From Lichina pygmaea (taxonomy: Eukaryota > Ascomycota > Lichinomycetes > Lichinales > Lichinaceae), in assembly GCA_963422465.1 (NCBI GenBank), contig OY730173.1, positions 3,906,001 through 3,970,000 of the forward strand: 64,000 nt of DNA. The letters run 5' to 3'. The first letter of the stretch is position 1; each line of letters opens with the position of its first letter. The notes below the pieces were generated by a model. The model made no database searches. It was given only the letters and a program-made list of their open reading frames with translations, and had not been told where the DNA came from. The position numbers and the translations under genes are program-made. Below, piece after piece: positions 19,799 to 64,000 of the stretch.

Positions 19799-20080
19799 AT
19801 GCCAGGAGAAGACGATAAGTTGAAATGTGCTGCGTGCACTTGGCGTGGAAGGTCTTGTGTCTCTGTGTCCTGGGAATCTTTGAACATGTCCCAGGACAAC
19901 CTCTGTGAGGATGTTGCCACTGACGAGGCAACACATGATGCACTTTTTGAACAACTTGCCACAGTGCAGGCTCGTCTGTCTCAGAAGCGAAAGGTGTTGG
20001 AGGGTGCCGAGGTCTGTGCGAGGCAGAAGCTTCAGTGCTTGGTGAAAGAGATGGAGTCGGATGGCGAGGATTTGACTTGA
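19799..20080 (+). CDS. Antisense accessory frame of Gypsy-1 (Zn2Cys6-like plus coiled coil)
   Basis: 92-codon frame opposite the 3' end of the integrase strand. Visible: KCAACTWRGRSC (Cys-x2-Cys-x6-Cys, second half of the cluster), then SVSWESLNMSQDNLCEDVA, then FEQLATVQARLSQKRKVLEGAE with heptad-like Leu/Ala and many charges, ending EMESDGEDLT. The same protein style appears in Gypsy-2, -3 and -4. This copy is shorter at its N terminus than Gypsy-3's. Confidence 0.6.
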   Translation: MPGEDDKLKCAACTWRGRSCVSVSWESLNMSQDNLCEDVATDEATHDALFEQLATVQARLSQKRKVLEGAEVCARQKLQCLVKEMESDGEDLT

Positions 20081-24973: not shown

Positions 24974-25517
24974 TGTTGTGGTCCGTACCGTACTGTCCTA
25001 TCCGAGTATAGGATTAGGGCGAGAGGTGGAAGGTGGGTTGGTTCTCGCAGGAGAGGAGTGTCAAGGAGTGCGAAGGGGTTTGGTGGAACGTGGTGGTGGT
25101 GACACCTGATCAACAGCTTCGTACAAAAGGATTGTATTGAAGTAGATCTAGTTGTCTGGATCACAACATGAGTTGAAGACAATTGTTCCATAGGGGAACT
25201 ATCGCCAGACTATATAGTGCCCAGTTCGTGAGCAGAGTGAGCTCTGCTCACTTTGCTCACTTTTCATGCACGCTGCAGTGAGCTGGGTGAGCTCTGCTCA
25301 CTTTGCTCACTTTTCATGCACGCTGCGGTGAGCTGGGTGAGCTCTGCTCACTTTGCTCACTTGTTCGTGCATATGCATGCTGCGGCGAGCACCCCCTGGT
25401 TTGTCTCGCCGGTCACGTGACCGGTTCCCGTGTCACGCTGTCTGGTACTTCCGTCCAGTATCCTGTCTGCTGCTTTCTGTGAGTATATAAAGACTGTGTT
25501 CCTCCTGGGTCATAACA
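24974..25517 (-). repeat. Gypsy-1 5' LTR (544 bp, LTR type A)
   Basis: Same length as the 3' LTR and about 98% identical by eye, with the same 50-bp tandem units. Ends in CATAACA, followed by the TTTGG duplication. Confidence 0.95.
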
Positions 25518-25627: not shown

Positions 25628-25640
25628 CCCTGAAAGATTT
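25628..25640. repeat. Target-site duplication of LINE B, right copy
   Basis: CCCTGAAAGATTT, identical to 13,868-13,880. Confidence 0.95.
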
Positions 25641-27061: not shown

Positions 27062-27621
27062 TGTTACGACCCCTGGGATGGAAGCCACTTATTTATAGGC
27101 AATCAGGCCGCAGGCCAGGCAAGAGGACACTATGGAAGTCAAGTGACCAACCAACAAGGGGTCACGTGACTGTCGAGACACACACAGGCAGCTTGACGCA
27201 GCATGCATGAAGCATCAAGACAATCTCACCAGTCTTGATGCAGGATGCAGGAAGCATTGAGACAGCCTCACCAGTCTCGACGCAGGGTGTATAACATAGT
27301 GGGACTGTCGAGACAATCTCACCCATCTTGACATCAAGACTGTCAAGACAATCTTGATTGTCTTGACAGGCCAGCACTATATAGTCTGGTGATAGTTCTC
27401 TTATAGAACAATCGTCTTCAACTCATGTTGTGATCCAGACAACTAGATCTACTTCAATACAATCCTTTTGTACAAAGCTATTGATCAGGTGTCACCCCCA
27501 CCACATTCCACCAAACCCCTTCACACTCCTTGACACTCCTCTCCTGCAAGAACCAACCTGCCTTCCACATCTCACCCTTAATCCTATACTTGGTTAGGAT
27601 GGCACAGTACAGACTGCAACA
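27062..27621 (+). repeat. Gypsy-2 5' LTR (560 bp, LTR type B)
   Basis: TGTTACGACCC to GACTGCAACA. U3 has two copies of a 42-bp unit (GCATGAAGCATC...) ahead of the TATA-like CTATATAG near 27,390. Confidence 0.93.
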
Positions 27622-30600
27622 CTTTGAAGACCCTCAAGGATGAGTACCTCAGGAGCAACCAACCCCAATAGAAAGATTAGTGTCACCAAGCCAGACCTGT
27701 TCTATGGTGAAAGGAACAAGGTCGACGACTGGCTTATGCAACTCCAAGTCTACTTTCAATTCCAACTGGAGACAAGACTGCCTAAAGAAAAGTGGCCACT
27801 CTTTGCAACCACTTACATGAGAGGTAATGCCCACTGATAGATTAAGCCTTATGTCAACAAACATCTCTCATGAAACAGAGATTACAACAGCATATCAGAA
27901 TAGATAACAAAATAGATACAATTCAAGGACAAGATCAAAAGGATTCTTGGACTATCTAACAAAGACAAAGTGGCTATACAAATGATCCAGCACATCAAGC
28001 AACAACGCTCAGCCGCAGAGTACACCACACAGTTCAAACAATACTCAGTACTGACTGACTGGGATGACAACGCCCTGATGGTCATGTACTGACATGGACT
28101 CAAGGAAAACATGAAGGATGAGATCACCTTCAACAGACAAGCAGTCAACACACTGGATAAACTCATCACACAAGCAATCAACATCAACAACAAGTTATTT
28201 GAGCAAGTGATAGAGAAGTGCCACAACAGAGGATACAGCCACCCAGCATGGTATGTGAGCAACCACTACAAGCTGCCTAACAAGACACTGCCACATGACC
28301 CATATGGCTACGCACTCATCGAACTGGATGCAGTCCACCACAGGGGAAGGTTCACGAAGGGAAGGAACAACAGAAAGAGGAAAGCACTAAAGTGCTATGC
28401 CTGTGGCAAGCTAGGCCACATGGCGAAAGACTGTTGTTCAAAGAACAAGGTGCACTGACATCAACTTAATACGCTTGATGGAGACTGGAACATCATCAAG
28501 CCAGAGGACCCACCAGGAGAGGCTCAGCTATCCCTTGAACAATAGAACAATTTTGATCAGACACTTGAAGCAGTCCACCAAGTAGCAACATCAGGAGGCA
28601 AGGACCTACCAGAACAGACAGATCAGGACAAGGGACAGGAGCCCTTAACTACCTCTGATGGGGACTGAGACAAACCTGTGTCTATCAAAGAAGAAATACC
28701 ACAAGGAAGCTATGCTTACAACATAGACCCACAAAACCTACAGTATGGTGAACTACAGTGGACGTTCTGCATAAAGCACTACTACACCTACCACGAACAG
28801 TTACGAGGATACAGAGAACATTCACCCTACCGCACCACCTGCCACAAGCATTAGGTCAACTGCAAGAAGGATGTGTGTGAAATCCACCTTTGGGACAAAC
28901 AACAATACACCACATTCCCTGGGCACACACATGATTGGCACAAACACCTCATGTTCCTACAGCAAGGCAACAACAACAACTGCTACATCAACAACTGGCA
29001 GTACTGCCTTAAGCCTGGATGTGACAAGCATCAGCAAGACAAATTCATGAACAGATTCCTCAGAACTGATGGGAATGACTGGACCCATTGCCCAGTCAGT
29101 GGAAAAACACTTCAATCAGGAAAAGACTGAACTCTCTTGTCAAGGGGCAACATCGGGAGCTCAACAACATGACCCCTAGCAACACAAAGCACCTGCAATT
29201 GCCTGTGTCACTACACACCAACACGCCAGTACAGACATACGTGCTTGTTGACTCTGGAGCCAGTGGGAACTATATTTCAAGACAACTTTACAACACCCTC
29301 GGCACTGGAAGAAGACGCAAGTGGCAGCCCTATCAGCTCACGATGGCAAATAGACAGACTGAGCTAGTCTGCCACAAGACACAGCCAATGGAAATAGTTA
29401 CCAGACACTATGTTGAAAGGATCCAACTTGATATTGTCGAGTTGGCCACTCAGGATATCTATTTGGGGATGCCTTGGCTAAAGAAGCACAACCCAGTTGT
29501 TAACTGGAGGACAGGAGTACTCACGTTTAGGAACTGCACTAACAACACAGCTCAGACCTGTTACCAGCCGTAGAAGGCGTGGACAGATAAGGGAAGGAGT
29601 CCTCAGTGGAACCTCACTGACAGAAAGGACAACTCTCAAGAGAAGAGGTCTGCCTTGACAGGCACACCCCAGAACCAGGTGGCCAAACAGTCAGAGATGA
29701 AGAGAGAGGAAGTTGTTAACTCTCTGGAGATCCCTGAAGAGTACTGACCTGGGTATGATAACTTCTTTCAGGAAGAGACAACAACAGCAGTGTTGTCTAA
29801 GCACTAACCTTGAGATTATAAGATCAAGTTGCAACCAGGGACAGAGCCAGGATTTGGACCAATTTACCAGTTATCAGAAAAAAAGCTCCAAGTACTTCGC
29901 GAGTACCTGGAGGAAAACCTGACAAAGAGTTTCATTCAAGAATCTCAATCACCAGCAGGATACCCAATACTATTTGCACCAAAGAAAGACAGAAGTCTTC
30001 GACTTTGTGTGGATTACAGGAAACTCAACAACATTACTATCAAAAATCAATACCTGTTGCCAAATGTGAACAAATTGTGAGACAGGATCAGCCAAGCTAC
30101 AATCTTCACCAAGCTGGACTTGAAAGAAGCATACAACCTGATACACATGAAAAAAGAAGAAGAATGGAAGACAGCTTTCAGAACCTGATACAGACACTAC
30201 AAGTATCTGGTCATGCTATTAGGACTCACAAACATACCAGCAACATGTCAAGCCTTGATCAACAATGTTATTAGAGCACACCTGGACCAAACAGCTATCA
30301 CCTACTTGGACAACATTCTTGTCTACTCGAACACATAACAGGAACATACCAAACATGTGAAGGATGTTCTACAATGTCTACAAGAGGCAGGGCTCAAGTT
30401 CAACCCAAAGAAATACAAGTTCAACAAACTGGAAGTTGAATTCCTCAGATATATCCTAGGGATTGAAGGGATCAAGATTGACCCTGAGAAAATCAAAGTG
30501 ATTCAGCAATAGCCAACACTGACATCAGTCAAGGAAGTACAAGCTTTCCTAGGATTTGCCAACTTCAACTGACAGTTCATTAAGAACTACTCACAGATGG

Positions 30601-32601
30601 CAACACCACTGACAGAACTCACAAAGAAGGATGTGGAGTACTGGTGGACAGAGAGACAACAAAAAGCATTCCAACAGCTCAAGGATACTTGCGCCAAGAA
30701 ACCAGTTCTCCTCAACTTCAAGACAGGCCAGCCAACACAAATCAAAACAGACACTTCAGACCAAGCGGTGGGAGCATGTCTATACCAACAGGCAGACAGC
30801 AAGTGGCACCCAGTTGCCTACTACTCACACATAATGTCACAAGCAGAACAAAACTGTGATATCTATGACAAAGAGCTACTGGCAGTTGTCAACACACTCA
30901 AACATTGGAGAGTGTATGCGGAAAGCAGTTCTGAACTCACTATTCTCACAGACCACAAGAATCTGACAATGTTCACAACAACAAAGAAGCTGAACAGAAA
31001 ACAAGTCAGATAGGCTGAACTCCTAGAGCAACACTAGTTCAAGATCTTGTACACTCCCAGACAAGACAATAGGAGAGTAGACGCACTAAGCTGACAAAAA
31101 GACCACATGGAAGATGATGAACACCAAGGAACAATCTTACAGCAGGACCAGCAAGGAAACCTGGTTCCTCAACCACAGATCAACAAGCTCACAGCAGAAG
31201 ACACTGAAGAACTAATAAGGAACTACCATGATAATCCAGCATATAGTCACCCAGGAATCACCAAAACCACAGACCTTATCCAACAGGCAGGGAATAATGT
31301 CATCAATCTCTGATAACACATCACAAGCTACATCAACAAATATCTACTATGCCAGAAAAACAAGCATGGAAGACACAAGCCATATGGAGAAGAACACCCG
31401 AACACAATACTGAGAGGTCCATGGGAAGATATGTCAATGGACTTCATCACAAAGCTACCCAAGTCTAAAGACCCAGTCACAGGAATCACCTACAACTCAA
31501 TTATGGTGATTGTGGACAGATTCACAAAATACCTAATAGTGGTACTATTCAAGGAAACCCACACAGCAGAGTAGTTGGGATACCTCCTACTGGACAGATT
31601 GGTCAGGGACCACAGAGTTCCAATCATGGTTATTACTGACAGAGACAAACTCTTCACATCTAACTACTGGAAAACTATCAGTGCAGCCGTGGGAACAAAA
31701 CCCAAGATGTCTACAGCCTATCACCCACAAACTGACAGCCAGACAGAGCAAGCAAACCAAGTCCTGGAGACTTATTTGCAGTATTACATCAACCAGACCC
31801 ACAGCAATTGGGTACAATTATTACCAGTGGCACAGCTGGTAATCAACCAGCACAGATCAGACTCAACAAAGGAATCACTATTCTTTGCCAATTTTGGACA
31901 ACACACAAACATTGGAATGCCAAGCAGAGCTTCACCAAACACAGAGAAAGCACTCCAACATGACAAGCTCCTACAACAAACACACACAATGATGAGGCAT
32001 TACCTTTAAGAGACCTCAGAAAAGATGCAACACCAAATAGACAAAAAATTGAAAATAGTACCTCAGCTGAAGAAGGGGGATAAAGTCTACCTCCTCACAA
32101 AAAATTGGAAAGTCAAGAAACCAAGAACAAAGAAACTGGACTATGTCAAGGTTGAACTATTTTCAGTCAAGGAAAGAACTGGACCAGTCAATGTCAGACT
32201 GCGACTACAGAGAGATGCTTGGGTACACCCAAACTTTCACATCTCAATGATCAAATTAGCTGACCAGAGCACACCCTTGCAGGAAACATTTCATTACCAA
32301 CCAGAGGAAGAACAGGAATTTGAGGTCAAACAGATCTTGAAGAGAAAAGGTCAGTGATACCTTGTCAAGTGGAAAAACTACCCAGACTCAGAAAATACCT
32401 GGGAACCACTCAGGAATCTTGCGAACTGGCAGCTCCTCCTGCAGCAGTTCTGGCAGAAGCAGGACTGAACAGCTCAGCCTGCAGCACGGACATGTCAATG
32501 ACTGTTGCTGACAAGTCTTCACCATCCACCTCTATTTCAGCAACAAGGCACTGGAGCTTCTTCTTTGCTTGACTCTCAGCACCTTCAAGAATCTTTCACT
32601 T

Positions 32602-32841
32602 TCAGGACACACAAGCCTGCAGCTTGGCAAGCTGCTCAACAAGAGCATCCTGCTTGGCCTCATCAACAGCCAAATCCTCGCGAAGGTTATCTCGGGTCAT
32701 GTTCAGTGACTCCCAAGAAAGTGACACACAGAACTTCCCATGACAAGTGCATTCAGCGCACTTCAACTTATTGTTGTTGTCAGACATTTGGAAGCAGGGC
32801 TTGTGGTTCAAAACACAGAAGTCACACAGAGCAAGTGACAT
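32602..32841 (-). CDS. Antisense accessory frame of Gypsy-2 (partial)
   Basis: 79-codon frame starting MSLALCDFCVLNHKPCFQMS. It contains both Cys triplets (CDFC...PC and KCAECTCHGKFC) with Zn(II)2Cys6-like spacing, then SLSWESLNMTRDNLREDLAVDEAKQDALVEQLAKLQ in the coiled-coil part. Confidence 0.55.
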   Translation of the reverse strand: MSLALCDFCVLNHKPCFQMSDNNNKLKCAECTCHGKFCVSLSWESLNMTRDNLREDLAVDEAKQDALVEQLAKLQACVS

Positions 32842-32954
32842 GAAGTTATGATCACAGATCTGGGCTGCCAGTTGTTTTCAGTAAGCAGAGGCATGTGATT
32901 TTGCAGACATACTCAAGAATTCATCAGGACAATAAATGAAGGAGAGGAGGGTAG

Positions 32955-33514
32955 TGTTACAACCTATGGGATGGGAGCCACTCATTTATAGGTAATCAGG
33001 CTGTGGGCCAGGCAAGAGGACACCATGGAAGTCAAGTGACCAACCAACAAGGGGTCACGTGACTGTCAAGACACACATGGGTGGCTTGACGCAGCATGCA
33101 TGAAGCATCAAGAGAATCTCACCAGTCTTGATGCAGGATGCAGGAAACATCAAGACAGCCTCACCAGTCTTGACGCAGGGTGCATAACATAGTGGGACCA
33201 TCAACACAATCTCACCTGTCTTGACGTCAAGACTGTCAAGACAATCTTGATCATCTTGACAGGCCAGCACTATATAGTCTGGTGATAGTTCCCTTATGGA
33301 ACAATTGTCTTCAACTCATGTTGTGATCCAGACAACTAGATCTACTTCAATACAATCCTTTTGTACAAAGCTATTGATCAGGTGTCACCACTACCATGTT
33401 CCACCAAACCCCTTCGCACTCCTTGACACTCCTCTCCTGCAAGAACCAACCTGTCTTCCACATCTCACCCTTAATCCTATACTCAGTTAGGACAGCACTG
33501 TACAGACTGCAACA
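32955..33514 (+). repeat. Gypsy-2 3' LTR (560 bp, LTR type B)
   Basis: TGTTACAACC to GACTGCAACA, same length and unit count as the 5' LTR. Confidence 0.93.
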
Positions 33515-33705
33515 TGCTCACGCATATGTGTGCTGCGGCGAGCAACCTCTGGTCAGTCTTGCCAGTCATGTGACTGCTTCCTGTGTTATGCTGCCTGGTA
33601 CTTCTGTCCAGTATCCTGTCTGCTGTTTCTTGTGAGTATAAAGACTGTGTTCCTCCTGGGTCGTAACACTATCCTCCTCTCCATCTTTCATTGTCTTGAT
33701 GAAAC

Positions 33706-34026
33706 TTGGTCATGTCTCCAAAGTCATGTGCGACTGTTAGCCAAACTCAGCTTACTGCTCAAATCCACGATCAGGATTTTGTTTCGTGTACGCCCTGCAA
33801 TTTTTGTGTTTTCTGTGGTCGTCCATGCTTCCAGATGCCAGGAGAAGATGATAAGTTGAAATGTGCTGTGTGCACTCAGCACGGGAAGTCTTGTGTCTCT
33901 GTGTCCTGGGAATCTCTGAACATATCCCAGGACAACCTTCGTGAGGATGTGGCTGCTGAAGAGGCAACACGCAACACACTCTTCGAACAACTTGCTGTGG
34001 TGCAAGTTTGTCTGTCTCAGAAGTGA
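33706..34026 (+). CDS. Antisense accessory frame of Gypsy-3 (longest N terminus)
   Basis: 106-codon frame. After MSPKSCATVSQTQLTAQIHD comes the full cluster: Cys-x2-Cys-x6-Cys, an 11-residue linker, then Cys-x2-Cys-x6-Cys (PCNFCVFCGRPC and KCAVCTQHGKSC). It continues SVSWESLNISQDNLREDVA and FEQLAVVQVCLSQK. A TATA-like TATAAAG at 33,637-33,643 in the LTR edge lies about 65 bp upstream. Confidence 0.6.
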   Translation: MVMSPKSCATVSQTQLTAQIHDQDFVSCTPCNFCVFCGRPCFQMPGEDDKLKCAVCTQHGKSCVSVSWESLNISQDNLREDVAAEEATRNTLFEQLAVVQVCLSQK

Positions 34027-34381
34027 AAGGTGTTGGAAGGTGCCAAGGTCTGTGCAAGACAGAAGCTTCAGTGTCTGGTGAAAGAGATGGAGTCGGATGG
34101 CAAGGATTTGACTTGATCAGTCATTGACACATCCCTTCTGCAGGCTGAGCTGTTCAGTCTTGCTCCTGCTGAAACTGTCGCAGAAGGAGCTGGCAGTTCG
34201 CGAGGTTCTTGAGTGGTTCCCAGGTATTCTCTGAGTCTGGGTATCCTTTCCACTTGACAAGGTATTGCTGACCTTTTCTAGCCAGGATCTGTTTGACTTC
34301 AAACTCTTGTTCTTCTTCGGGTTAGTAATGAAATGTCTCCTGCAAGGGTGTGCTCTGGTCAGCTGGTTCAATCATTGATAT

Positions 34382-34648
34382 TGTCACAGTTCTGGCCCAG
34401 TTGCATATCTGGCACAAGTCACACATCTTGCCAGGAAGTTCCATCTGCACTGTTGCCTGTTTGCTCCACTGTATCCCCTGCCTATAAGAACTTCTCCTAC
34501 TCCCCCAGCTTCTTCTCTTCTTCTTTTCTCTTTTCCTTCCTTGTCTTTTGTTTTGTACATCAATCCAAGTCTCAAGTCTCAAGTCAAGTCAGGTCAAGGT
34601 TACCGAATCAGTTAGGCTTGAGTTCTGCTCTGCTATTGTCTTGTCACA
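34382..34648 (+). repeat. GypC-1 5' LTR (267 bp)
   Basis: TGTCACAG to TTGTCACA, TATA-like CCTATAAGAAC near 34,479. Confidence 0.93.
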
Positions 34649-37600
34649 CTACGAAAGACCTACCCAACCATAACACACTTCACCAAGCCATGTTCACATC
34701 CTTGTCATGTCTCAACAACCAGACCAAGCCATGCCAGTTGCTGGAAATGACAAGTTCCTTCGCAACATGTTTGCAGAGTTCATGTGAATTCAAGCTACCA
34801 ACACCACTTCCAAGTCCAAGTCTGAACACACTGCTGACCCAGAGATCTTCAGTGGTGATGGCGGAAACACAGAAATCACACATGAGAAGCTTGAGAGCTT
34901 CATCACATCACTGTCACTCAAGATGACACTCAACACTGACTGGTACCCCACAGAAATATTGCGGATTGTGTACGTCTTTTCACGCACGACTGGCACTGCG
35001 CAGTCCTACATCTCAGCTAAGATCACAGCTGGCCAGTACATTGACTGGCACAACATTGTCCAAGATCTCCGGAATGCCTTCTCTGACCCAGACCCAGAGT
35101 TCCTAGCTCAGAGAAAGCTTATCACCTTGTGTCAGGCCAACTGTTCCTTTGCCGAGTTCTTCACAGAGTTCAATCAGTATGCTCCACACACAGGCTTCAA
35201 TGACAAGGCCTTGAAGTGCCATCTTTGATGTGCTGTCTCTGAAGAGCTTGCCAAGCAGCTTATCAGCATCAACCTCAAGGACATCAGCTATCAGAAGCTT
35301 GTTGAGGAATGCCAGCTGCAGGACAACCAGTTACATGCCACTTCTGCCAACTCTCACTGTCCACATCAAGCACCTCCCACCCAAGCCTCAGTTCCACAGT
35401 CAGGAGCTTCAGTTCTGTGTCCAGGGTTCATCAAGCCAGCCTTCACACCACAGCCACCAAGTCCTACCATAGATCTCAGCTGCTCTAAGCTGACACCAGA
35501 AGAGTGAGAACATCACTGAAGCAAAGGCCTCTGCTTCTACTGTGGGAACCAAGGTCATGTCTCAACCTTCTGTCCAGTGAAAAGCATGCCTGTTGTTGCC
35601 ACCACCACAACCACCACCAAGTCTGCCACTGTTGAGACTACTCCAAAGTCAGAAAACAAGTAGTCCTTGGTTATCATCACACCCAAGGACATGAAAAGGA
35701 TCTCCATGTTGGCTATCTGTCTCCAGACCAGCAATTGGACAGCAAGTGCTTGTTTCTTCCTTGTATCCTAGATGGGAAATTCAAGTGCAATACTCTTATT
35801 GACTCTGGCTGTTCAGCATTTGGCTGCATTGGTGCTTCCTTTACGCAATCTCTTCACTAAGAACCTCTCCCCTACCCACGCACATTGTGATTGTTTGATG
35901 GCAAGACATCACAAACCACACATCTTGCGAAGACAATCATGACTATGGCACATGGTGTGCACCAGGAGGAAGTCTCTCTCTTGGTGTCTCCTGGTCCTCA
36001 CTATGATGTGATTCTGGGGATGCCATGGCTCCAGAAGCACAGGCCACACATTGATTAGACAAACACCTCAATCATGTTCAAGTCAGATCACTACTGATCC
36101 CCATGCCTCAAGTCAAACAATAGCTATCCAATCTCTTTGGATCTTAAAGCCAAGATGTCTGCTGGAAAGTCTCAGAATCCCAAGCCTCTTTCTGCCATGC
36201 CAATCCCTATCAATGCTGCCACATTTTCTCTCCTTGCTGCCAAGCCAGATCACCAGGTGTTCAGTGTTTCTCTGAGAGACATTGAGCAGGTGTTGAAGTC
36301 AAAGAAGTATGTGGATCCTGCCACACTTCTCCCTGCTCAGTACCACAAGTTCCTGGATGTCTTCAGCAAGGATGACGCTGACAAGCTTGCTCCTCTACGC
36401 CCAGGAGTTGACCACAAGATCAAGATGGAACCAGGAACCCAGGCACCCTCTGGACCTTTGTACAGCATGAGCAGAGAAGAACTTGAAGTTCTCAAGAAGT
36501 ACCTGACAGAGAACCTGAACAAGGGCTTCATTCAAGTATCTTCATCACCTGCTGCTACACCAGTCCTCTTTGTCAAGAAGCCAGAAGGTGGATTGTGTTT
36601 CTGTGTAGACTACAGAGCACTCAACACTATCACCATCAAGAACTGTTACCCCCTACCACTGATCCCGGAGATGTTGGACCAGCTTTGCAAAGCTGTGTGG
36701 TACACCAAGCTTGACATTGTTGGTGCCTTCAACTGTATCTGGATGAAGGAAGGTGAAGAATAGAAGACTGTGTTCTGCACACGCTCAGGCCTCTACAAAT
36801 ACCTTGTCATGCCCTTTGGTCTTGCCAATACTCCAAGCATGTTCCAGAACTATATCAATGATGTTTTGAGACCTGACATCCTTGATGTCTTTGGCACTGC
36901 CTATGTGGATGACATTCTTGTCTACAGTCAGACACTCAAGAAACACTGGAAGCATGTCAAGCTTGTTCTCAGTCAACTACAAGATGCAAGCCTGCAAGTT
37001 GACATCTCCAAGTGTGACTTTGAAGTGCATCAAGTCAAGTACCTTAGCCTCATCATTCAGTCTGCCACTGAAGATGGCTGACCCAGATCTGTGAGTATAG
37101 ACCCAGCCAAGACTGACACCATCAAGGAGTGGAAGCCTCCTGCCAGTCTCAAGGAAGTGGAGAGCTTCATTGTCTTTGCAAACTTCTACCACTAGTTTAT
37201 CAAAGACTTTGCCAAGCTTGCATCCCTACTCACAGCTCTGACCAAGAAGAATGTTGCCTTCAAGTGGGAAACCCCAGAGCAGCACCTGTTTGAAAGTATC
37301 AAGAAGGTCTTCAGAACTGCACCCATCCTGCAGCACTTTGATCTGGAGAAGGAGGGTGTTGTTGAGACTGACACTTCTGACTACGTCTCTGGTGCTGTCC
37401 TGTCACAGCCAGATCATGAAGGAGTTCTACGCCCTGTTGCCTTCTTGTCACGCCACCACCTGCCGGCAGAATGCAACTACAAGATCTATAATAAAGAGTT
37501 GCTGGCAATTGTCTGTGCCTTTGAAGAATAGTGAGCAGAGCTTGAAGGATCTCCAGAACCTGTCAAAGTGATCTCTGATCACAAGAACTTGGAGTACTTC

Positions 37601-39424
37601 ATGTTGTCAAAGTGCCTTTCCTGCTGTCAAGCCTGTTGGAGCAAGTTCTTGTCACACTTCAATTTCAAGATCAGCTACTGTCCAGGCAGTCAGTGCAAGT
37701 CTGACACTCTCACTTGATGTTCTCAAGACCTCCTGTCAGACAGTGATCCCTGTCAAGACTTCATGGAGCAAGTTGTCCTCAAGCCCAAGAATCTTGCATA
37801 TTCAGAGGTTCAAGTCAAGCCTATCCAGATCCTGAGATGTTCAGAAGCTGCACCAGTTGACACTGAACCTGGCACTGCACCTCTTTCAGACATCATCCAA
37901 GCTACCTATAACAACCTTGCTGAAGGTGATCCAGTGGCAACAGTGTCACAGATACTAAGGGATAGTGTCAGGCACAGTCAAGAAGTGTCTCTCTCAGACT
38001 GCAGCTTAGAAAATAACTATCTCTTCTACAAGAACTGACTCTGGATCTCTGAGAATGATGAGCTACACCTACACCTGTTCCAAGAAGCCCATGACCAAGC
38101 AATAGCTAGCCACACTGAGATTGCCAAGACCCACAATCTTCTGTCTTGTTGGTACTATTGGCCAAAGATGGTGAACATCATACAGCAGTACATCAGGAAT
38201 TGTCATGTCTGCTCTAAAGCAAAGCCTGCCCGTGATCACCAAGGAGAGCTGCTGTCTCTTCCCATACCTCAGCAATGTTGGCAGGATCTGGCTATAGATT
38301 TCATTACTGACTTGCCCAAGTCAAGAGATGCCTGCTTCCCTGGTGCCAAGCACATCTGGGTCATCACTGACTGTCTCACCAAAGAACACCACTTTGTGCC
38401 ATGTGCTGAGATGACAACCTCACATCTTGTCTGGATGTTCATCCAGTTTGTTGTCTGTACCCATGGCTTGCCCAGGAGTATTGTCTCAGACAGATGAGGT
38501 CAGTTTGTCAGCTTATTCTGGAAAGCACTCTGTACCCATCTTGACATCATGCTATGACTATTCTCAGGACACCACTCAGAGACAGATAGTCAGATAGAAC
38601 AAGAGAATCAGGAGCTTGAACACTACCTGAGATCCTATGTCAACTATCTCCAAGATGACTGGGTCCAATAGCTTCCTCTGGCAGAGTTCATGCAGAACAA
38701 CTCCCAGTCTGATTCCTCTGGCATGTCACTGTTCTTTGCCAACAAAGGGTTCTATCCACAGCTCAGCATCACACCCACGAGTGAAGTCTGCAACCAAGAT
38801 GCTATGGAAATCTCTGGAGAAATGATGCAGATTCTGGAACAGTTGTAAGCTGAACTCCGACTATCCCAGGAAGCTCAAGCTCACACCACCAATTTGCATC
38901 AAGTCCTGTCACTGTCCTATCAAACTGGAGATCTTGTTTGGCTGAATACCAAGAACATCAGGGCACACCACCCATGCAAAAAGCTTGACAACAAGTGGAT
39001 TGGACTATTCAAGTTGTTGAAGACAGTCAGAAGCTGTGCCTGCCATCTGGAGCTTCCACACACTCTCAAGATCCACTCTGTCTTTCACGTTTCCCTTCTA
39101 CGTCTGACACCTGCTAATCCTATCCCTGGCCAATCAAATGAACACCCTGGCCCTGTCATTGGTCAAGACACAGATGAAGAGTTCCAGGTTGAAGAAATCC
39201 TTGACTCCAAGCCAGCAATGTCTTGACAGAAGTTCAAGTACCTGGTCAAATAGTCTGGATGGCCAATTGAAGATGCCACTGAAGAGCCTATTGAGCATCT
39301 TGACAACACCAAAGACACTATCTACAACTTCCATGAGAAATACTCAAGGAAACCACAGCCACAGAACTACAGCCACAAGCAGCCTGAGACTCACAGGAGT
39401 TCACCATGTGAAGGAGGGGGGTAA

Positions 39425-39691
39425 TGTCACAGTTCTGGCCCAGTTGCATATCTGGCACAAGTCACACACCTTGCTGGGAAGTTCCATCTGCACTGTTGCC
39501 TGTTTGCTCTGCTGTATCCCCTGCCTATAAGAACTTCTCCTGCTCCCCCAGCTTCTTCTCTTCTTCTTTTCTTTTTTCCTTCGTTGTCTTTTGTCTTGTA
39601 CATCAATCCAAGTCTCAAGTCTCAAGCCAAGTCAGGTCAAGGTTACTGAATCAGTTAGGCTTGAGTTCTGCTCTGCCATTGTCTTGTCACA
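39425..39691 (+). repeat. GypC-1 3' LTR (267 bp)
   Basis: Same length and ends as the 5' copy. Confidence 0.93.
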
Positions 39692-42600
39692 GATATATGA
39701 AAGTTTGGATGGACTCTGGCATCTCTTGGTAGTCGTATCTTGACGTTGACTAGTCCTGTTTTCTCTTCGACTGAAAATGGTCTGACCTTGATATTGTCAA
39801 GTTTCTTTGTCTTTGGCTTTTTTGTTTTCCAATTTTTTGTGAGAAGGTAGACTTTATCCCCCTTCTTTAGCTGAGGTGCCATTTTCAATTTTTTGTCTAT
39901 TTAACACTGTATTTTTTTTGAGGTCTCTTGAAAGTAGTGCCTTATCATTGTGTGTGTTTGTCGCAGGAGCTTGTCATGTCAGAGTGCTTTCTCCATGTTC
40001 AGTGAAGCTCTGCTTGGTATTCCGATGTTTGCATGTTGTCCAAAATTAGCAAAAAATAGCGATTCCTTTGTTGAATCTGATCTGTGCTGGTTGATTGCCA
40101 GCTGTGCCACCAGTAATAACTGTACCCAATTGCTATAGGTCTGGTTGATGTAATGCCACAAGTAAGTCTCCAGGACTTGGCTTGCTTGCTCTGTCTGGCT
40201 GTCTGTCTGTGGGTGATAGGCTGTAGACATTTTGGGTTTTGTTCCTATGGCTGCACTGATTGTCTTCCAGTAGTTGGATGTGAAGAGTTTGTCTCTGTCT
40301 GTAATGATTGTGATTGGAACTCTGTAGTCTCTGACCAATCTGTCCAGTAAGAGGTGTCCCAACTGTTCTGCTGTGTGGGTCTCCTTGAATAGTACCACTA
40401 TCAGATATTTTGTGAATCTGTCCACCATCACTATAATCAAGTTGTAGGTGATTCCTGTGACTGGGTCTTTGGACTTGGGTAGCTTTGTGATGAAGTCCAT
40501 TGACACATCTTCCTACAGGCCTCTTGGTATTGTGTTCAGGTGTCCTTCTCCATATGGCTTGTGTCTTCTATGTTTGTTTTTCTGGCACAGTAGACATTTG
40601 CTGATGTAGCTTGTGACATGTTTTCAGAGATTGATGATATTGTTCTCTGCCTGTTAGATAAGGTCTGTGGTCTTGGTGATTCCTGGGTGACTATGTGCTG
40701 GGTTGTTGTGGTAGTTCCTTATTAATTCTTCAGTGTCTTTTGCTGTGAGCTTGTTGATCTGTGGTCAAGGCATCAGGTTTCCTTGCTGGTCCTGCTGTAA
40801 GATCATTCCTTGGTGTTCATCATCTTCCATATGGTCTTTTTGTCAGCTTAGTGTGTCTGCTCTCCTGTTGTCTTGTCCGGGGGTATACAAGATCTTGAAC
40901 TTGTGTTGCTCTAGGAGTTCAGTCTATCTGACTTGTCATCTGTTCAGCTTCTTTGTTGTTGTGAATATTGTCAGATTCTTGTGGTCTGTGAGAATGGTGA
41001 GTTCAGAACTACTTTCTGCGTACACTCTCCAGTGTTCAAGTGTGTTGACAACTGCCAGTAGCTCTTTGTTGTGGATATCATAGTTCTGTTCTGCTTGTGT
41101 CATCTTGCGTGAGTAGTAGGCAACTGGGTGCCACTTGTCGTCTGCCTGTTGGTATAAACATGCTCCCACTGCTTGGTCTGAAGTGTCTGTTTTGATTTGT
41201 GTTGGTTGGCCTGTCTTGAAGTTGAGGAGAACTGGTTCCTTGGCGCAAGTGTCCTTGAGCTGTTGGAATGCTTTTTGTTGTCTCTCTGTCCACCAGTACT
41301 CCGCGTCCTTCTTTGTGAGTTCTGTCAGTAGTGTTACTATCTGTGAGTAGTTCTTAATGAACTGTCAGTTGAAGTTGGCAAATTCTAGGAAGGCTTGTAC
41401 TTTCTTGACTGATGTCAGTGTTGGCTATTACTAAATCACTTTGATTTTCTCAGGGTCAATATTGATCTCTTCAATCCCTAGGATGTATCCAAGGAATTCA
41501 ACTTCCAGTTTGTTGAACTTGTATTTCTTCAGGTTGAGCTTGAGCCCTGCCTCTTGTAGGCATCATAGAACATCCTTCACATGTTTGGTATGTTCCTGTT
41601 ACGTGTTCGAGTAGACAAGAATATTGTCCAAGTAGGTGATAGCTGTTTGGTCCAGGTGTGCTCTGATGATATTGTTGATCAAGGCTTGACATGTTGCTGG
41701 TGTGTTTGTGAGTCCGAATAGCATGACCAGATACTTGTAGTGTCTGTATCAGGTTCTGAAAGCTGTCTTCCATTCTTCTCCTTCTTTCATGCGTATCAGG
41801 TTGTATACTCCTTTCAAGTCCAGCTTGGTGAAGGTTGTAGCTTGTCTGATCCTGTCTTGCAGTTTGTTCGCATTTGGCAACAGATATCAGTTTTTGATGG
41901 TAATGTTGTTGAGTTTCCTGTAGTCCACACAAAGTCAAAGACTTCCATCTTTCTTTAGTGCAAATAGTATCAGATATCCTGCTGGCGATTGAGATTCTTG
42001 AATGAAACTCTTTTTCAGGTTCTCCTCCAGGTACTCGCAAAGTACTTGGAGCTCTTTCTCTGATAACTGGTAAATTGGTCCAAATCCTGGCTCTGTCCCT
42101 GGTTGCAACTTGATCTCATGATCCCAAGGTTAGTGCTTAGGCAACACTGCTGTTGTTGTCTCTTCCTGAAAGAGGTTATCATACTCAGGTCAGTACTCTT
42201 CAGAGATCTCCAGAGAGTTAACAACTTCCTCTCTCTTCATCTCTGACTGTTTGGCCACCTGGTTCTGGGGTGTGCCTGTCAAGGCAGACCTCTTCTCTTG
42301 AGAGTTGTCCTTTCTGTCAGTGAGGTTCCACTGAGGGTTCCTTCCCTTATCTGTCCACACCTTCTGTAGCTAGTAACAGGTTCGAGCTGTGTTGTTAGTG
42401 CAGTTCCTAAACATGAGTAGTCCTGTCCTCCAGTTAACAACTGGGTTATGCTTCTTTAGCCAAGACATCCCCAAATAGATATTCTGAGTGGCCAACTTGA
42501 CAATATCAAGGTAGATCCTTTCAGCATGGTGTCTGGTAACTATTTCCATTGGCTGCGTCTTGTGGCAGACTAGCTCTGTCTGTCTATTTGCCATCACAAG

Positions 42601-43706
42601 CTGATAGAGCTGCCGCTTGCGTCTTCTTCCAGTGCTGAGGGTGTCGTAAAGTTGTCTTGAAATGTAGTTTCCACTGGCTCCAGAATCAACAAGTGTGTAT
42701 GTCTGTACTGGCGTGTTGGCGTGTAGTGACACAGGTAATCATAGGTGCTTTGTGTTGCTAGGGGTCATGTTGTTAAGCTCCTGATGTCACCCCTTGACAA
42801 GAGAGTTCAATCTTTTCCTGATTGAAGTGTTTTTCCACTGACTGGGCAATAGGTCCAGCTATTCCCATCAGTTCTGAGGAATCTGTTCATGAATTTGTCT
42901 TGCTGATGCTTGTCACATCCAGGCTTGAGGCAGTACTGCCAAATGTTGATGTAGCAGTTGTGGTTGTTGCCTTGCTGTAGGAACATGAGGTGTTCATGCC
43001 AATCATGTGTGTGCCCGGGGAATGCGGTGTGTTGGTGTTTGTCCCAGAGATGGATCTCACACACATTCTTCTTGCAGTTGGCCCAATGTTTGTGGCAGGT
43101 GGCGTGGTAGGGTGAATGCCCTCCATATCTTTGTAGCTGTTTGTGGTAGGTGCAGTAGTGCTTTATGCAAAACCTCCACTGTAGTTCGCCGTGCTGTAGG
43201 TTTTGTGAGTCTATGCTGTAAGCATAGCTTTCTTGTGGTATTTCTTCTTTGATAGACACAGGTTCATCTCAGTCCCTATCAGAGGTGGTTAAGAGCTCCT
43301 GTCCCTTGTCCTGACCTGTCTGTTCTGGTAGGTCCTTGCCTCCTGATGTTGCCAGTTGGTGGGCTGCTTCCAATGTCTGGTTGTATTTGTCCTATTGTTT
43401 GAGGGATAGCTGCGCCTCTCCTGGTGGATCCTCTGGCTTGATGACATTCCAGTCTCCGTCAAGTGTATTAAGTTGCTGTCAGTGCACCTTGTTCTTTGAA
43501 CAACAGTCTCTTGCCATGTGGTCTAGCTTGCCACAGGCATAGCACTTCAGTGCTTTCCCCTTCTTGTTGTTCCTTCCTTTTGTGAACCTTCTCTTGTGGT
43601 GGACTGCATCCAGTTCCATGGGTGCGTAGCCATATAAGTCATGTGGCGGTGCATTCTTAGGTGACTTGTAGTGGTTGCTCACATGCCATGTGGGGTGGCT
43701 CTGTCC

Positions 43707-44087
43707 TGTGACAAGGCAATGGCAGAGCAGAACTTGAGCCTAACTGATTCAGTAACCTTGACCTGACTTGGCTTGAGACTTGAGACTTGGATTGATGTAC
43801 AAGATGAAAGACAAGGAAGGAAGAAAAAAAGAAAAGAAGAGAAGAAGCTGGGGGAGCAGGAGAAGTTCTTATAGGCAGGTGATCAGGCAATAGTGTAGCA
43901 AACAGGCAACAGTGCAGATGGAACTTCCCGGCAAGGTGCGTGCAGATGGAACTTCCCAGCAAGGTGCGTGACTTGTGCCAGATATGCAACAAGGCAATAG
44001 CAGAGCAAACAGGCAACAGTGCAGATAGAACTTCCCAGCAAGGTGTGTGACTTGTGCCAGATATGCAACTGGGCCAGAACTGTGATA
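43707..44087 (-). repeat. GypC-2 3' LTR, enlarged to 381 bp
   Basis: Compared with the 267-bp LTRs it contains extra copies of the GATGGAACTTCCC-GCAAGGTGCGTG block and of the GGCAACAGTGCAGAT block at about 43,900-44,050, explaining the extra 114 bp. Confidence 0.85.
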
Positions 44088-57635: not shown

Positions 57636-58234
57636 TGTTACGACCCAGGGATGGGAGCCACTCATTTATAGGCAATCAGGCCGCGGGCCAGGCAAGAGGA
57701 CACCATGGAAGTCAAGTGACCAACCAACAAGGGGTCACGTGACTGTCGAGACACACACGGGAGTCTTGACACATGATGCATGAAGCATCGAGACAATCTC
57801 ACCAGTCTTGACGCAGGGTGCATGAAGCATCAAGACAATCTCACCCGTCTCGACGCAGGATGCATGAAGCATCGAGACAATCTCACCCGTCTCGACGCAG
57901 GGTGCATAACATGGTGGGACTGTCAAGACAATCTCACCCGTCTCGACGTCAAGACTGTCGAGACAATCTCGATTGTCTTGACAGGCCAGCACTATATAGT
58001 CCGGTGATAGTTCCCTTATGGAACAATCGTCTTCAACTCATGTTGTGATCCAGACAACTAGATCTACTTCAATACAATCCTTTGTACGAAGCCATTGATC
58101 AGGTGTCACCACCACCACGTTCCACCAAACCCCTTCGCACTCCTTGACACTCCTCTCCTGCGAGAACCAACCCGCCTTCCACCTCTCGCCCTAATCCTAT
58201 ACTCGGATAGGACGGTACGGTACAGACCGCAACA
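57636..58234 (+). repeat. Gypsy-4 5' LTR (599 bp, LTR type B)
   Basis: TGTTACGACCC to GACCGCAACA. U3 has three 42-bp units at 57,778-57,819, 57,820-57,861 and 57,862-57,903, one more than Gypsy-2. Sense TATA-like CTATATAG near 57,993. Confidence 0.95.
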
Positions 58235-61200
58235 CTTTGAAGACCCTCAAGGATGAGTACCTCAGGAGTAACCAACCCCAACTTCCCAGATGGAAAGATT
58301 AGCGTCGCCAAGCCAGACCTGTTCTACGGCGAAAGGAACAAGGTTGACGATTGGCTCATGCAACTCCAAGTCTACTTTCAATTCCAACCAGAGACGAAGC
58401 TGCCTAAAGAAAAGTGGCCACTCTTTGCAACCACTTACATGAGAGGCAATGCTTATCGATGGATCAAGCCCTACGTCAACAAACATCTCTCAGGAAACAG
58501 AGACCATGACGGCACATCGGAATGGATGACGAAATGGACGCAATTCAAGGATGAGATCAAAAGGATCCTTGGACTATCTAACGAAGATAAAGTGGCTATA
58601 CAAATGATCCAGCACATCAAGCAACGACGCTCAGCCACAGAGTACACCACACAGTTCAAACAATACTCAGTACTGACTGATTGGGACGACGACGCCCTGA
58701 TGGTCATGTACCGACGTGGACTCAAGGAAAACGTGAAGGATGAAATTACCTTCGACAGACGAGCGGTCGACACACTGGACGAACTCATCGCACAAGCAAT
58801 CAACATTGATGACAAACTATTCAAGCGAGCGATGGAGAAACGCCACGACGGAGGATACAGCCGCCCCGCATGGCATGTGAGCAACCACTACAAGCCACCT
58901 AACAAGGCACCGCCACATGACCCATATGGCTATGCACCCATGGAACTGGATGCAGTCCACCACAAGGGAAGGTTCACGAAGGGAAGGAACAACAAAAAGG
59001 GGAAAGCACTGAAGTGCTATGCCTGTGGCAAGCTAGGCCACATGGCGAAAGACTGTCGTTCAAAGAACAAGGTGCACTGACAGCAACTTAATACACTCGA
59101 CGGAGACTGGAATGTCATCGAGTGAGAGGACCCACCAGGAGAGGCTCAGCTATCCCTCGAACAATAGGACGACTACGATCAGATATTGGAAGCAGCCCAC
59201 CAACTGGCAACATCAGGAGGCAAGGACCTACCAGAACTAACAGGTCAGGACAAGGGACAGGAGCCCTTAACCACCTCTGATGGGGACCGAGACGAACCCG
59301 CGTCTATCAAAGAAGAAATACCACGAGGAAGCTATGCTTACAGCATGGACCCACGAAATCTACGGCATGGTGAACTACAGTGGAGGTTTTGCACAAGGCA
59401 CTACTGCACCTACCACGAACAACTACGAAGGTACGGAGGACATTCACCCTACCACACCACCTGCCACAAGCATTGGGTCAATTGCGAGAAGGATGCGTGT
59501 GAGATCCATCTTTGGGACAAACACCAACACACCACATTCCCCGAGCACACACATGATTGGCACGAACGCCTCATGTTCCTACAGCAAGGCAACAACTACA
59601 ACTGCTACGTTGACAATTGGCAGTACTGCCTCAAGCCTGGATGTGACAAGCATCAGCAAGACAAATTCATGAACAGATTCCTCAGGACTGATGGGAATGG
59701 CTGGACCTATTGCCCAGTCAGTGGAAAGACACTTCAATCAGGAAAAGACTGAACTCCCTTGTCAAGGGGCGACATCGGGAGCTCAACAACATGACCCCTA
59801 GCAACGCAAAGCACCTGCGATTGCCTGTGTCACTACACGCCAACACGCCGATACAGACATACACACTTGTTGACTCTGGAGCCAGTGGGAACTACATTTC
59901 AAGACAACTTTACGATACCCTCAGCACTGGAAGGAGACGCAAGCAGCAGCCCTATCAGCTCGCGATGGCAAATAGACAGACAGAGCTAGTCTGCCATGAG
60001 ACGCAGCCAATGGAAATGGTTACCGGACACCATGCTGAAAGGATCCACCTTGATATCGTCGAGTTGGCCACTCAGGATATCTACTTGGGGATGCCTTGGC
60101 TAAAGAAGCACAACCCAGTTGTTAACTGGAAGACAGGAGTACTCACGTTTAGGAACTGCACTAACAACGCAGCTCAGACCTGTTACCAGCCGCAGAAGGC
60201 GTGGACAGATGAGGGAAGGAGTCCTCAGTGGAACCTCACCAACAGAAAGGACAACTCTCAAAAGAAGAGGTCTGCCTCGACAGGCACACCCCAGAACCAG
60301 GTGGCCAAACAGTCAGAGATGAAGAGAGAGGAAGTTGTTAACCCTCTGGAGATCCCTGAAGAGTACCGACCTGGGTATGATAACCTCTTTCAGGAAGAGA
60401 CAACGACAGCAGCGTTGCCTAAGCACCAACCTTGGGATCATGAGATCAAGTTGCAACCAGGGATGGAGCCAGGATTTGGACCAATTTACCAGTTATCAGA
60501 GAAAGAGCTCCAAGTACTTCGCGAGTACCTGGAGGAAAACCTGAAAAAGGGTTTCATTCGAGAATCTCAATTGCCAGCAGGATACCCGATACTATTTGCA
60601 CCAAAGAAAGACAGAAGTCTTCGACTTTGTGTGGATTACAGGAAACTCAACAACATTACCATCAAGAATTGATATCCGCTGCCAAATGCGAACAAATTGC
60701 GAGACAGGATCAGCCAAGCTACAATCTTTACCAAGCTGGACTTGAAAGGAGCATACAACCTGATACGCATGAAAAAAGAAGAAGAATGGAAGACAGCCTT
60801 CAGAACCTGATACAGACACTACGAGTATCTGGTTATGCCATTCGGACTCACAAACGCACCAGCAACATGTCAAGCATTGATCAACAACGTCATCAGAGCA
60901 CACCTGGACCAAACAGCTATCGCCTACCTGGACGACATTCTTGTCTACTCGAACACGCAACAGGAACATACCAAACATGTGAAGGATGTTCTACGATGCC
61001 TACAAAAGGCAGGGCTCAAGCTCAACCCGAAGAAATGTGAGTTCAACAAACCGGAAGTTGAATTCCTTGGATACATCATAGGGATTGAAGGGATCAAGAT
61101 TGACCCTGAGAAAATCAAAGCGATTCAGCAATAGCCAACACCAACATCAGTTAAGGAAGTACAAGCCTTCCTGGGATTTGCCAACTTCAACTGACAGTTC

Positions 61201-63031
61201 ATCAAGAACTACTCACAGATGGCAACTCCACTGACAGAACTCACGAAGAAGGACGTGGAGTACCGGTGGACGGAGAGACAACAAAAAGCATTCCAACAGC
61301 TCAAGGACACTTGCGCCAAGGAACCAGTTCTCCTCAACTTCAAGACAGGCCAACCGACGCGAATCAAGACAGACGCTTCAGATCAAGCAGTGGGAGCATG
61401 TCTATGCCAACAGGCAGACGGCAAGTGGCACCCAGTTGCCTACTACTCACAAAAAATGACACAAGCGGAACGAAACTATGATATCCACGATAAAGAGCTA
61501 CTGGCAGTCGTCAACGCACTCGAACACTGGAGAGTGTACGCGGAAAGCAGTTCCGAACTCACTATTCTCACAGACCACAAGAATCTGACAACGTTCACGA
61601 CAACCAAGAAGCTGAACAGACGGCAAGTCAGATGGGCTGAACTCCTAGGGCAACACAAGTTCAAGATCTTGTACACCCCTGGACAAGACAATGGGAGAGC
61701 AGACACACTAAGCCGACGAAAAGACCACATGGAAGATGATGAACACCAAGGAACGATCTTACAGCAGGACCAGCAAGGAAACCTGGTACCTCAACCACAG
61801 ATCAACAAGCTCACGGCAGAAGACACTGAAGAACTAATAAGGAACTACCACGATAATCCAGCACATGGTCACCCAGGAATCACCAAAACTACAGACCTGA
61901 TCCAACAGGCAGGGAACAATGTCATCAATCTCTGACAACATGTCACAAGCTACATCAACAAATGTCTACTATGCCAGAAAAACAAGCATGGAAGACACAA
62001 GCCATATGGAGAAGGACACCCAAACACGATACCGAGAGGCCTGTGGGAAGATGTGTCAATGGACTTCATCACAAAGCTACCCAAGTCCAAAGACCCAGTC
62101 ACAGGAATCACCTACAACTTGATTATGGTGATAGTGGACAGATTCACAAAATACCTAATAGCGGTACCATTCAAGGAAACCCACACAGCAGAGCAGTTGG
62201 GACACCTCCTACTGGACAGATTGGTCAGGGACCACGGAGTTCCAATCACGGTCATTACTGACAGAGACAAACTCTTCACATCCAACTACTGGAAAACAAT
62301 CAGTGCAGCCATGGGAACAAAACCCAAAATGTCTACAGCCTATCACCCACGAACTGACAGCCAGACAGAGCGAGCGAACCAAGTCCTGGAGACTTACTTA
62401 CGGCATTACATCAACAAGACCCACAGCAATTGGGCACAGTTATTACCGGTGGCACAGCTGGCAATCAACCAGCACAGATCAGACTCAACAAAGGAATCGC
62501 CATTTTTTGCCAATTTTGGACAACATGCGAACATCAGGATGCCAAGCAGAGCTTCACCAAACGTGGAGAAAGCACTCCAACACAACAAGCTCCTACGACA
62601 AACGCACACGATGATGAGGCACTACCTTCAAGAGACCTCAGAAAGAATGCAACGCCAAATGGACAAGAAATCGAAAATGGCACCTCAGCTAAAGAAGGGG
62701 GATAAAGTCTACCTCCTCACAAGAAATTGGAAAATGAAGAAACCAAGAACAAAGAAACTGGACCATGTTAAGGTCGGACCATTTTCAATCGAAGAAAGAA
62801 CTGGACCAGTCAACATCAGACTGCGACTACTGAGAGACGCTCGGGTACACCCAAACTTTCACATCTCAATGATCGAATTAGCCGACCAGAGCACACCCTT
62901 GCAGGAAACATTTCATTACCAACCAGAGGAAGAACAGGAATTCAAGGCCGAACAGATCCTGAAGAGAAAAGGTCAGCGATACCTTGTCAAGTGGAAAGAC
63001 TACCCAGACTCGGAAAATACCTGGGAGCCAC

Positions 63032-63463
63032 TCAGGAACCTCGCGAACTGCCAGCTCCTCCTGCAGCAGTTCCGGCAGGAGCAGGACCGAACAGCTCAGC
63101 CTGCAGCGTGGACGTGTCAATGACTGTCACCGACAAGTCTTCACCATCCGCCTCCATTTCAGCAACAAGGCACTGGAGCTTCTTCTTTGCTCGACCCTCA
63201 GCACCCTCAAGAACCTTTCGCTTTCGGGACACACAAGCCTGCAGCTCGGCAAGCTGCTCGACAAGAGCATCCCGCTTGGCCTCATCGACAGCCAAATCCT
63301 CGCGAAGGTTATCCCGAGTCATGTTCAGCGACTCCCAAGAAAGTGACACACAGGACTTTCCCCGACGAGTGCACTCAGCGCACTTCAACTTATCGTTGTC
63401 GTCAGACATTCGGAAGCAGGGCTTGTGGTTCAAAACACAGAATTCACACGGAGCAAGCGACAC
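63032..63463 (-). CDS. Antisense accessory frame of Gypsy-4, Zn(II)2Cys6-like
   Basis: Open from 63,463 to 63,032 (143 codons as read from a GTG; the first ATG is at MSDDNDK). Full cluster spacing: CEFC-x6-C, 11 residues, CAEC-x6-C (CEFCVLNHKPC and CAECTRRGKSC). Then SLSWESLNMTRDNLREDLA, a Leu/Ala heptad stretch DALVEQLAELQACVSRKRKVLEGAE, EMEADGEDLSVTVIDTSTLQAELFG and a Gly/Ser/Ala tail. It overlaps the end of the integrase-chromodomain frame by about 90 bp tail to tail. A TATA-like CTATAAA (63,612-63,606, antisense) lies in the LTR edge upstream. The role is unknown; DNA binding is inferred. Confidence 0.65.
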   Translation of the reverse strand: MSLAPCEFCVLNHKPCFRMSDDNDKLKCAECTRRGKSCVSLSWESLNMTRDNLREDLAVDEAKRDALVEQLAELQACVSRKRKVLEGAEGRAKKKLQCLVAEMEADGEDLSVTVIDTSTLQAELFGPAPAGTAAGGAGSSRGS

Positions 63464-63576
63464 GAAGTTATGATCACGGATCTGGGCTGCCAGTTGGTTT
63501 CAGTAAGCAGAGGCACGTGATTTTGCAGACATACTCAAGAATTCATCGGGACGATGAATGAAGGAGAGGAGGGTAG

Positions 63577-64000
63577 TGTTACAACCCAGGGATGGGAGCC
63601 ACTTATTTATAGGCAATCAGGCTGTGGGCCAGGCAAGAGGACACCATGGAAGTCAAGTGACCAACCAACAAGGGGTCACATGACTGTCGAGACACACACA
63701 GGAGTCTCGACGCATGATGCATGAAGCATCAAGACAATCTCACCAGTCTCAACGCAGGGTGCATGAAGCATCGAGACAATCTCACCCATCTCAACGCAGG
63801 ATGCATGAAGCATCGAGACAATCTCACCCGTCTCGACGCAGGGTGCATAACATGGTGGGACTGTCGAGACAATCTCACCTGTCTCGACGTCGAGACTGTC
63901 AAGACAATCTCGATTGTCTCGACAGGCCAGCACTATATAGTCCGGCGATAGTTCCCTTATGGAATGATTGTCTTCAACTCATGTTGTGATCCAGACAACT
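63577..64000 (+). repeat. Gypsy-4 3' LTR (partial)
   Basis: TGTTACAACCCAGGG onward, with the same tandem units from about 63,718. Truncated by the window edge after 424 bp. Confidence 0.95.

Follow-up and report, generated by a model that had tools for sequence, protein, structure and literature searches.

An antisense gene kept by selection beside the 3′ long terminal repeat of a gypsy family in Lichina pygmaea, and exchanged as one block with U3: a possible autoregulator

Why would a retrotransposon carry, on the strand opposite to its gag and pol genes, an open reading frame (ORF) with six regularly spaced cysteines? The question is raised by a stretch of 64,000 nucleotides from the ascomycete Lichina pygmaea (contig OY730173.1 of assembly GCA_963422465.1, positions 3,906,001 to 3,970,000), hereafter the window, which contains four copies (A, B, C, and D) belonging to a single chromodomain Ty3/gypsy family. 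When all 64 kb were scanned in six frames for two halves of the CX2CX6C type, exactly four matches emerged, one per copy, each opposite the gag-pol strand. This agrees with the original prediction that all four copies keep a frame with two such halves and an 11-residue linker. The reading favoured here, tentatively and partly by inference, is that the frame encodes an autoregulator which travels with its own operators.

Where does this frame begin and end? When the 3′ ends of the four copies are aligned, B, C, and D all show an ATG at one homologous position, where A reads ATA. In copy D this start codon lies 45 nt from the 3′ long terminal repeat (LTR), on the internal side, and the GTG start listed earlier is not real. 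At its other limit, the frame closes 4 nt before the pol stop in A and C and reaches 92 nt into the 3′ end of pol in B and D (the pol stop of D being at 63121-63123). From these two limits it follows that the antisense gene is placed tail to tail with pol, with its start adjoining the LTR. It lies mainly between pol and the 3′ LTR, so that its earlier description as mainly antisense to pol was mostly wrong. The frame of copy A, previously thought to hold the second Cys half only, is in full open from 19667 to 20080 and contains both. Between the position of the start codon and the pol stop, in-frame stops number one in D, three in B, one in A, and two in C. Copy D is open from 63499 down, and its single stop is a TGA at codon 11, found in B as well and in neither A nor C; the codon-135 stop common to A and C is probably the natural end there. 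A short intron spanning the codon-11 stop in B and D (GTATGT ... CAG, 63487-63534) was set aside, since the site is absent from A and C and the first exon would be closed by a stop immediately upstream.

The history of the frame is that of a protein-coding gene. Over the 409 columns from start to pol stop, the four-copy alignment has no gap in any copy, and hence no indel between the two subfamilies (A/C and B/D); the 116 columns upstream of the start have 17 gap columns, nine in a ragged alignment end and eight internal. Changes fixed between A/C and B/D are distributed 22/16/53 over the three antisense codon positions (chi-square p 2e-6). On the internal branch between the two types there are 48 synonymous and 42 non-synonymous changes, which gives a ratio of non-synonymous to synonymous proportions (pN/pS) of 0.26, and uncorrected values for the four between-type pairs are 0.26–0.31 (bootstrap limits 0.19–0.42). 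In the two between-type pairs that the Jukes–Cantor formula can correct, the corresponding rate ratio (dN/dS) is 0.089 and 0.087; in the other two the synonymous sites are saturated, and their values of 0.045 and 0.057 rest on an imposed cap. In changes confined to one copy the ratio is looser (0.50); C>T and G>A make up 40 of these 54, an excess expected of decay after insertion in dead copies. The third-position enrichment, the low ratios, and the gap-free frame together show that the product was kept by selection, as had been proposed. The cysteines themselves do not vary from copy to copy, all six being identical in all four. That the frame was a real gene, its product held by purifying selection as a protein while the elements were active, can be stated with high confidence.

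Could the open frame be a chance or a by-product, under no selection of its own and mirroring codon bias or a sense frame that overlaps it? Between the two types, the other frames have dN/dS of 0.74–2.1, with the exception of sense frame 2, which has its third positions in common with the antisense frame and is also low, at 0.16–0.23. Every one of the four copies, however, has two to six stops in that sense frame; in the two comparable pairs, dN/dS there exceeds the antisense value more than twofold; and the stretch tested for selection lies outside pol. A by-product was already disfavoured and is scarcely credible. The possibility that this stretch holds a gene on the sense strand was likewise rejected: the long sense frames of A and D are in different frames, none is common to the copies, and each sense frame either has the higher dN/dS given above or is stopped in every copy.

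The antisense gene and U3 are inherited and exchanged as one block. Measured per 200 nt, D and A are 92–99% identical from the U3/R border via gag and pol to about 62,835, whereas identity is 63–86% through the end of the chromodomain, the antisense gene, and the U3 of both LTRs; in the 3′ end they share 77.5% of their bases. The synonymous divergence (dS) of pol between D and A is 0.03–0.23 in five stretches before 62,850, against 0.73 in 62851-63030. Site patterns change partner in the same way: the backbone (58852-61851) groups D with A at 84 sites, with B at 21, and with C at 14, while the aligned end of the module (62950-63640) groups D with B at 135 sites and supports the other groupings at six and five. 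Just before the module, in 62352-62872, the patterns are those of the backbone, with 16 sites for D and A against five and four. The module has one border at the U3/R junction, the point at which strong-stop DNA transfers to a second RNA during reverse transcription. If that second RNA were a co-packaged one from a different lineage, U3 would be copied along with the antisense gene, so that, with the gene lying antisense beside U3, one template switch would move regulator and operators at once. As a separate observation, copy C (39687 onwards) is 84.5–86.2% identical to the other three over 62352-62872 and 90–93% over 58852-61851; it may be mosaic further upstream than A.

What does the exchanged U3 contain? 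An antisense TATAAA stands 26–30 nt into the LTR in all seven LTR starts of the family, and a sense ACTATATAG is found at 299–355 nt in each of the six LTRs long enough. U3 is bounded by these two TATA boxes, which face outwards, and between them lie repeat arrays with inverted half-sites, in units of 42 nt in B and D and 50 nt in A (the U3 of C is cut). The half-sites are specific to the type. TCRAGAC/GTCTYGA occurs 13 times in the 5′ LTR of D, 11 in its 3′ LTR, and eight and seven times in the 5′ and 3′ LTRs of B, with none in either LTR of A or in the cut 3′ LTR of C. GTGAGC/GCTCAC occurs 12 and 11 times in the 5′ and 3′ LTRs of A and once in that of C, and is absent from B and D. Simulation with matched dinucleotide composition gives an expectation of 0.21 for the 5′ LTR of D and 0.50 for that of A, and densities in the rest of the window are 0.46 and 0.50 per kb. 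Between the two U3 types, parts of the spacers separating the half-sites can be matched up by eye. Ahead of the arrays, both types also have a GTCACGTGAC palindrome with CGAGACA within a few bases (about 57734-57754 and about 25402-25421), possibly a host-factor site.

An antisense TATA so close to the edge of the LTR would also suit an antisense transcript that itself regulates, through double-stranded RNA or transcriptional interference, the protein being secondary. Such a role is discussed for plant antisense ORFs in the accessible part of one paper (PMC7264820). A non-coding RNA, however, would not yield a frame-specific pN/pS of 0.26 and zero gaps, and this explanation is improbable.

The sequence of the protein offers a plausible way for it to act. 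Its motif, C-x2-C-x6-C-x11-C-x2-C-x6-C (spacing 2-6-11-2-6), is found in all four copies and falls within the range of Zn(II)2Cys6 clusters, which is CX2CX6C-X5-12-CX2CX6-8C. The predicted order is a short N-terminus, the six-Cys stretch, and a helix of 63 residues, modelled in copy D with a predicted local distance difference test (pLDDT) score of 93–97 for residues 71-110 and less at either end. To judge from spacing, the resemblance to Zn(II)2Cys6 is a match of layout, and the layout could act as a zinc-cluster and coiled-coil regulator. Regulators of the Gal4 kind have the same Cys spacing and a helix after the cluster, and at GAL1-GAL10 inverted half-sites likewise lie between divergent promoters. 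A basic run between Cys2 and Cys3 is typical of Zn(II)2Cys6; the first half of the window protein differs in having none, and the protein also differs in having no significant family match.

From these elements the following mechanism may be proposed. The third gene of the element, running opposite to gag-pol from beside the 3′ LTR, would encode a small protein of about 134 residues (A/C type) or about 166 (B/D type). Its transcription would begin at the antisense TATA, its six cysteines would hold a zinc cluster, and the modelled helix would form a coiled-coil dimer; that the product is a zinc-bound coiled-coil protein seems probable. The dimer would then bind the U3 half-sites of its own type and control transcription on both strands, the likeliest outcome being negative feedback on the element. 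Binding to U3 and autoregulation are possible but somewhat doubtful; granted the binding, a repressor would be rather more plausible than an activator.

Several observations weigh against this autoregulator. The half-sites lie mostly in tandem repeats, so that only a few units are independent (an estimated 3 to 5 of each). There are only four copies, every one broken, and B and D have the codon-11 stop in common. The boundary of the module is not clean: pol dS is 0.36, an intermediate value, in 63031-63120, where both genes overlap, and the stretch 61852-62351 favours D with B (12 sites) over D with A (4), unlike the other backbone. For these two reasons the mosaic has more than one break, and 61852-62351 is perhaps a second small exchange tract. 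The exchanged block may reflect merely where templates switch. Fixed differences in the protein are not concentrated in the Cys domain (5/33 there, 13/75 in the linker and helix, 6/28 before the domain); three adjacent codons between Cys2 and Cys3 do differ between D and A. The Cys domain is modelled with a pLDDT of about 40–60, alone or in the whole protein, and its first half appears as a pair of strands, not a helix. Finally, no Pfam family scores above its cut-off for the four whole frames or their Cys regions.

Zn_clus (PF00172) reaches 9.6 bits against a cut-off of 21 (E 1.3) with the Cys region of D and is listed neither for the other three regions nor for the four whole frames. DUF3716 (PF12511) reaches 14 bits against 22 (E 0.048) in copy A and is not listed for B, C, or D. 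Unrelated families score similarly below cut-off (Toxin_5, 15.1 against 25), and these matches therefore carry little weight. The resemblance to the fungal binuclear zinc cluster is one of spacing, and membership of that family is putative. The same sub-threshold matches are what would speak for the capture of a fungal zinc-cluster gene from the host, carried passively since. Its presence in all four copies and both subfamilies, with synonymous sites near saturation, argues that it is neither recent nor passive, which makes passive carriage highly improbable; an ancient capture is possible as the origin of the gene. Sequence searches of the PDB gave no match for two of the four Cys regions and only seven chance-level matches (E 0.64–1.5) for the 143-residue D protein. 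Against viral contigs, the D protein gave 18 pattern matches and no relatives and the alignment 35 and none; the alignment likewise gave 35 and none against genome contigs. Since the contigs searched are viral, bacterial, and archaeal, this says little about fungi.

The strongest rival to the autoregulator is a selected antisense protein with another job (a nucleic-acid chaperone, a partner of Gag or integrase, or a nuclear import factor), the U3 half-sites binding host factors. Selection is shown, yet no family names a function, the sole confidently predicted part is a long helix, and antisense ORFs without known function are listed in plants and Botrytis (PMC7264820, accessible text). Against such a protein stand the exchange of gene and U3 as one block with type-specific half-sites and a six-Cys plus helix layout that fits a DNA-binding dimer. 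Its probability is appreciable without being high.

Is such a gene without precedent? Zhao et al., in Virology in 2011, are said to have described Boty-like gypsy elements of Botrytis cinerea, the title calling the extra gene (brtn) antisense. In the accessible text of two further papers, a Boty-like element has gag-pol with a chromodomain plus brtn (PMC4227169), and Boty is named as one case of an antisense ORF lying between pol and the 3′ LTR (PMC7264820). Like the window family, then, brtn is an extra antisense gene in a fungal chromodomain gypsy element, a likeness of description only. In plants, Retand (with a TRP28 domain), Grande gene23, RIRE2, and PvRetro13 have antisense ORFs (aORFs) at the same place, kept in most copies, with predictions of DNA binding for TRP28 and of a nuclear location for the Grande protein; their function is called unknown (PMC11963269, PMC7264820, both available in part). 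These differ from the window family in host, in domains, and in the size of the pol-LTR region (2.9–6.6 kb in Retand), and the available parts of the same papers do not mention a paired U3 operator or module exchange. Since all four of its copies have an antisense ORF at this place, conserved as a protein, the window family belongs to the class of brtn and Retand. The view that such a gene would be unusual is therefore only partly right, because antisense genes at that place are already in print for several families in plants and for a gypsy element of Botrytis (PMC7264820, PMC11963269, as far as their accessible text goes).

Regulation from an antisense gene also has parallels. The human T-cell leukemia viruses (HTLV), which are deltaretroviruses, express HBZ and the APH genes in antisense from the 3′ LTR; HBZ, a nuclear basic leucine zipper (bZIP) protein, reduces the expression of HTLV-1, and APH-3 and APH-4 are inhibitors of LTR activity (PMC10186651, accessible part). 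The antisense TATAAA at a fitting place in seven of seven LTR starts would be in keeping with such expression. HBZ differs in being of the bZIP type and acting through CREB-2 binding (same source and part), and the parallel is drawn with no claim of sequence relation. In the mussel Steamer-like element MchSLE-1, the 3′ LTR drives antisense RNA and the antisense ORF can be expressed as a protein in cell culture (PMC10974842); this is an animal element, and the accessible text mentions no zinc-cluster domain. In the literature searched, seen in part and with most subscription papers outside its reach, no fungal gypsy element with an antisense gene of the zinc-cluster kind was found, nor any six-Cys antisense gene matched with U3 arrays specific to its type; the words "antisense" and "additional ORF" are absent from the Laccaria transposons paper (PMC3411680).

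Table 1. Positions in the window of the gypsy copies, their antisense genes, and associated U3 features.
Feature	Positions	Strand	Remarks
Copy D antisense gene	63032..63532	-	homologous ATG 63532-63530, stop 63032-63034
Copy A antisense gene	19676..20080	+	ATA at start-codon position; stop common with C, 4 nt before pol stop
Copy C antisense gene	33712..34116	+	ATG; internal stop closes open frame at 34026; then stop common with A
Copy B antisense gene	32410..32910	-	ATG; internal stops at codon 11 and two others
Copy D six-Cys domain	63350..63448	-	
Copy D predicted long helix	63149..63337	-	residues 55-117 of 155-residue frame (63032-63499)
Exchanged module, copy D (approximate borders)	62850..63931	+	chromodomain end, antisense gene, purine tract, U3 to sense TATA
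Antisense TATAAA, copy D 3′ LTR	63606..63611	-	
Sense TATA, copy D 3′ LTR	63932..63940	+	ACTATATAG; far end of U3
U3 42-nt repeat array, copy D 3′ LTR	63703..63848	+	TCRAGAC/GTCTYGA
U3 42-nt repeat array, copy D 5′ LTR	57762..57907	+	
U3 50-nt repeat array, copy A 3′ LTR	19343..19486	-	GTGAGC/GCTCAC
U3 50-nt repeat array, copy A 5′ LTR	25228..25371	-	
Copy A, whole element	19088..25517	-	LTRs 19088-19632 and 24973-25517, identity 97.8%
Copy B, whole element	27062..33514	+	
Copy C	33522..43710	-	3′ part 33522-34381, remainder from 39687; 5′ end not traced
Copy D	57636 to past window end	+	
Copy D 5′ LTR	57636..58235	+	
Copy D 3′ LTR	63577..64000	+	truncated by window end
Copy D purine-rich tract	about 63561-63576	+	directly before 3′ LTR
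Copy D pol end	61936..63123	+	integrase / SH3 / chromodomain

Within the family, Pfam recognises gag in copy A and the integrase, SH3, and chromodomain in copy D. Copy C is split by another gypsy-like element at about 34379-39691. The latter, with LTR-like ends of ~270 nt, is the first copy of a second gypsy-like family, found again at 43999-49143 and without any match in the two-half Cys scan. LINE-like (long interspersed nuclear element) pieces lie at 1-1908, 14058-17306, and 25527-26990: the first two contain a reverse transcriptase, the second also an endonuclease domain, and the third is mostly a 99% inverted match to the first. Host genes are represented at 50314-52375 by inosine monophosphate (IMP) dehydrogenase, whose best PDB match is 4af0 (presumably the Cryptococcus structure), and at 6466-7173 by a piece of the complex I 51 kDa gene. 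The assembly has a gap of 200 N at 8485-8684.

What, then, would the pairing of gene and U3 mean for such elements? Heteroimmune lambdoid phages offer the parallel of swapped regulator and operator regions. By analogy, the exchanged blocks might be swappable, immunity-like regions, near-identical gag-pol backbones carrying regulators of different specificity and so escaping each other's control; this extension of the autoregulator is unlikely on present evidence. In this family, frame-specific selection is combined with a plausible DNA-binding layout and with two natural types of gene and U3 on similar backbones. If the autoregulator is real, regulator-operator cassettes would serve retroelements in much the same way as they serve temperate phages.
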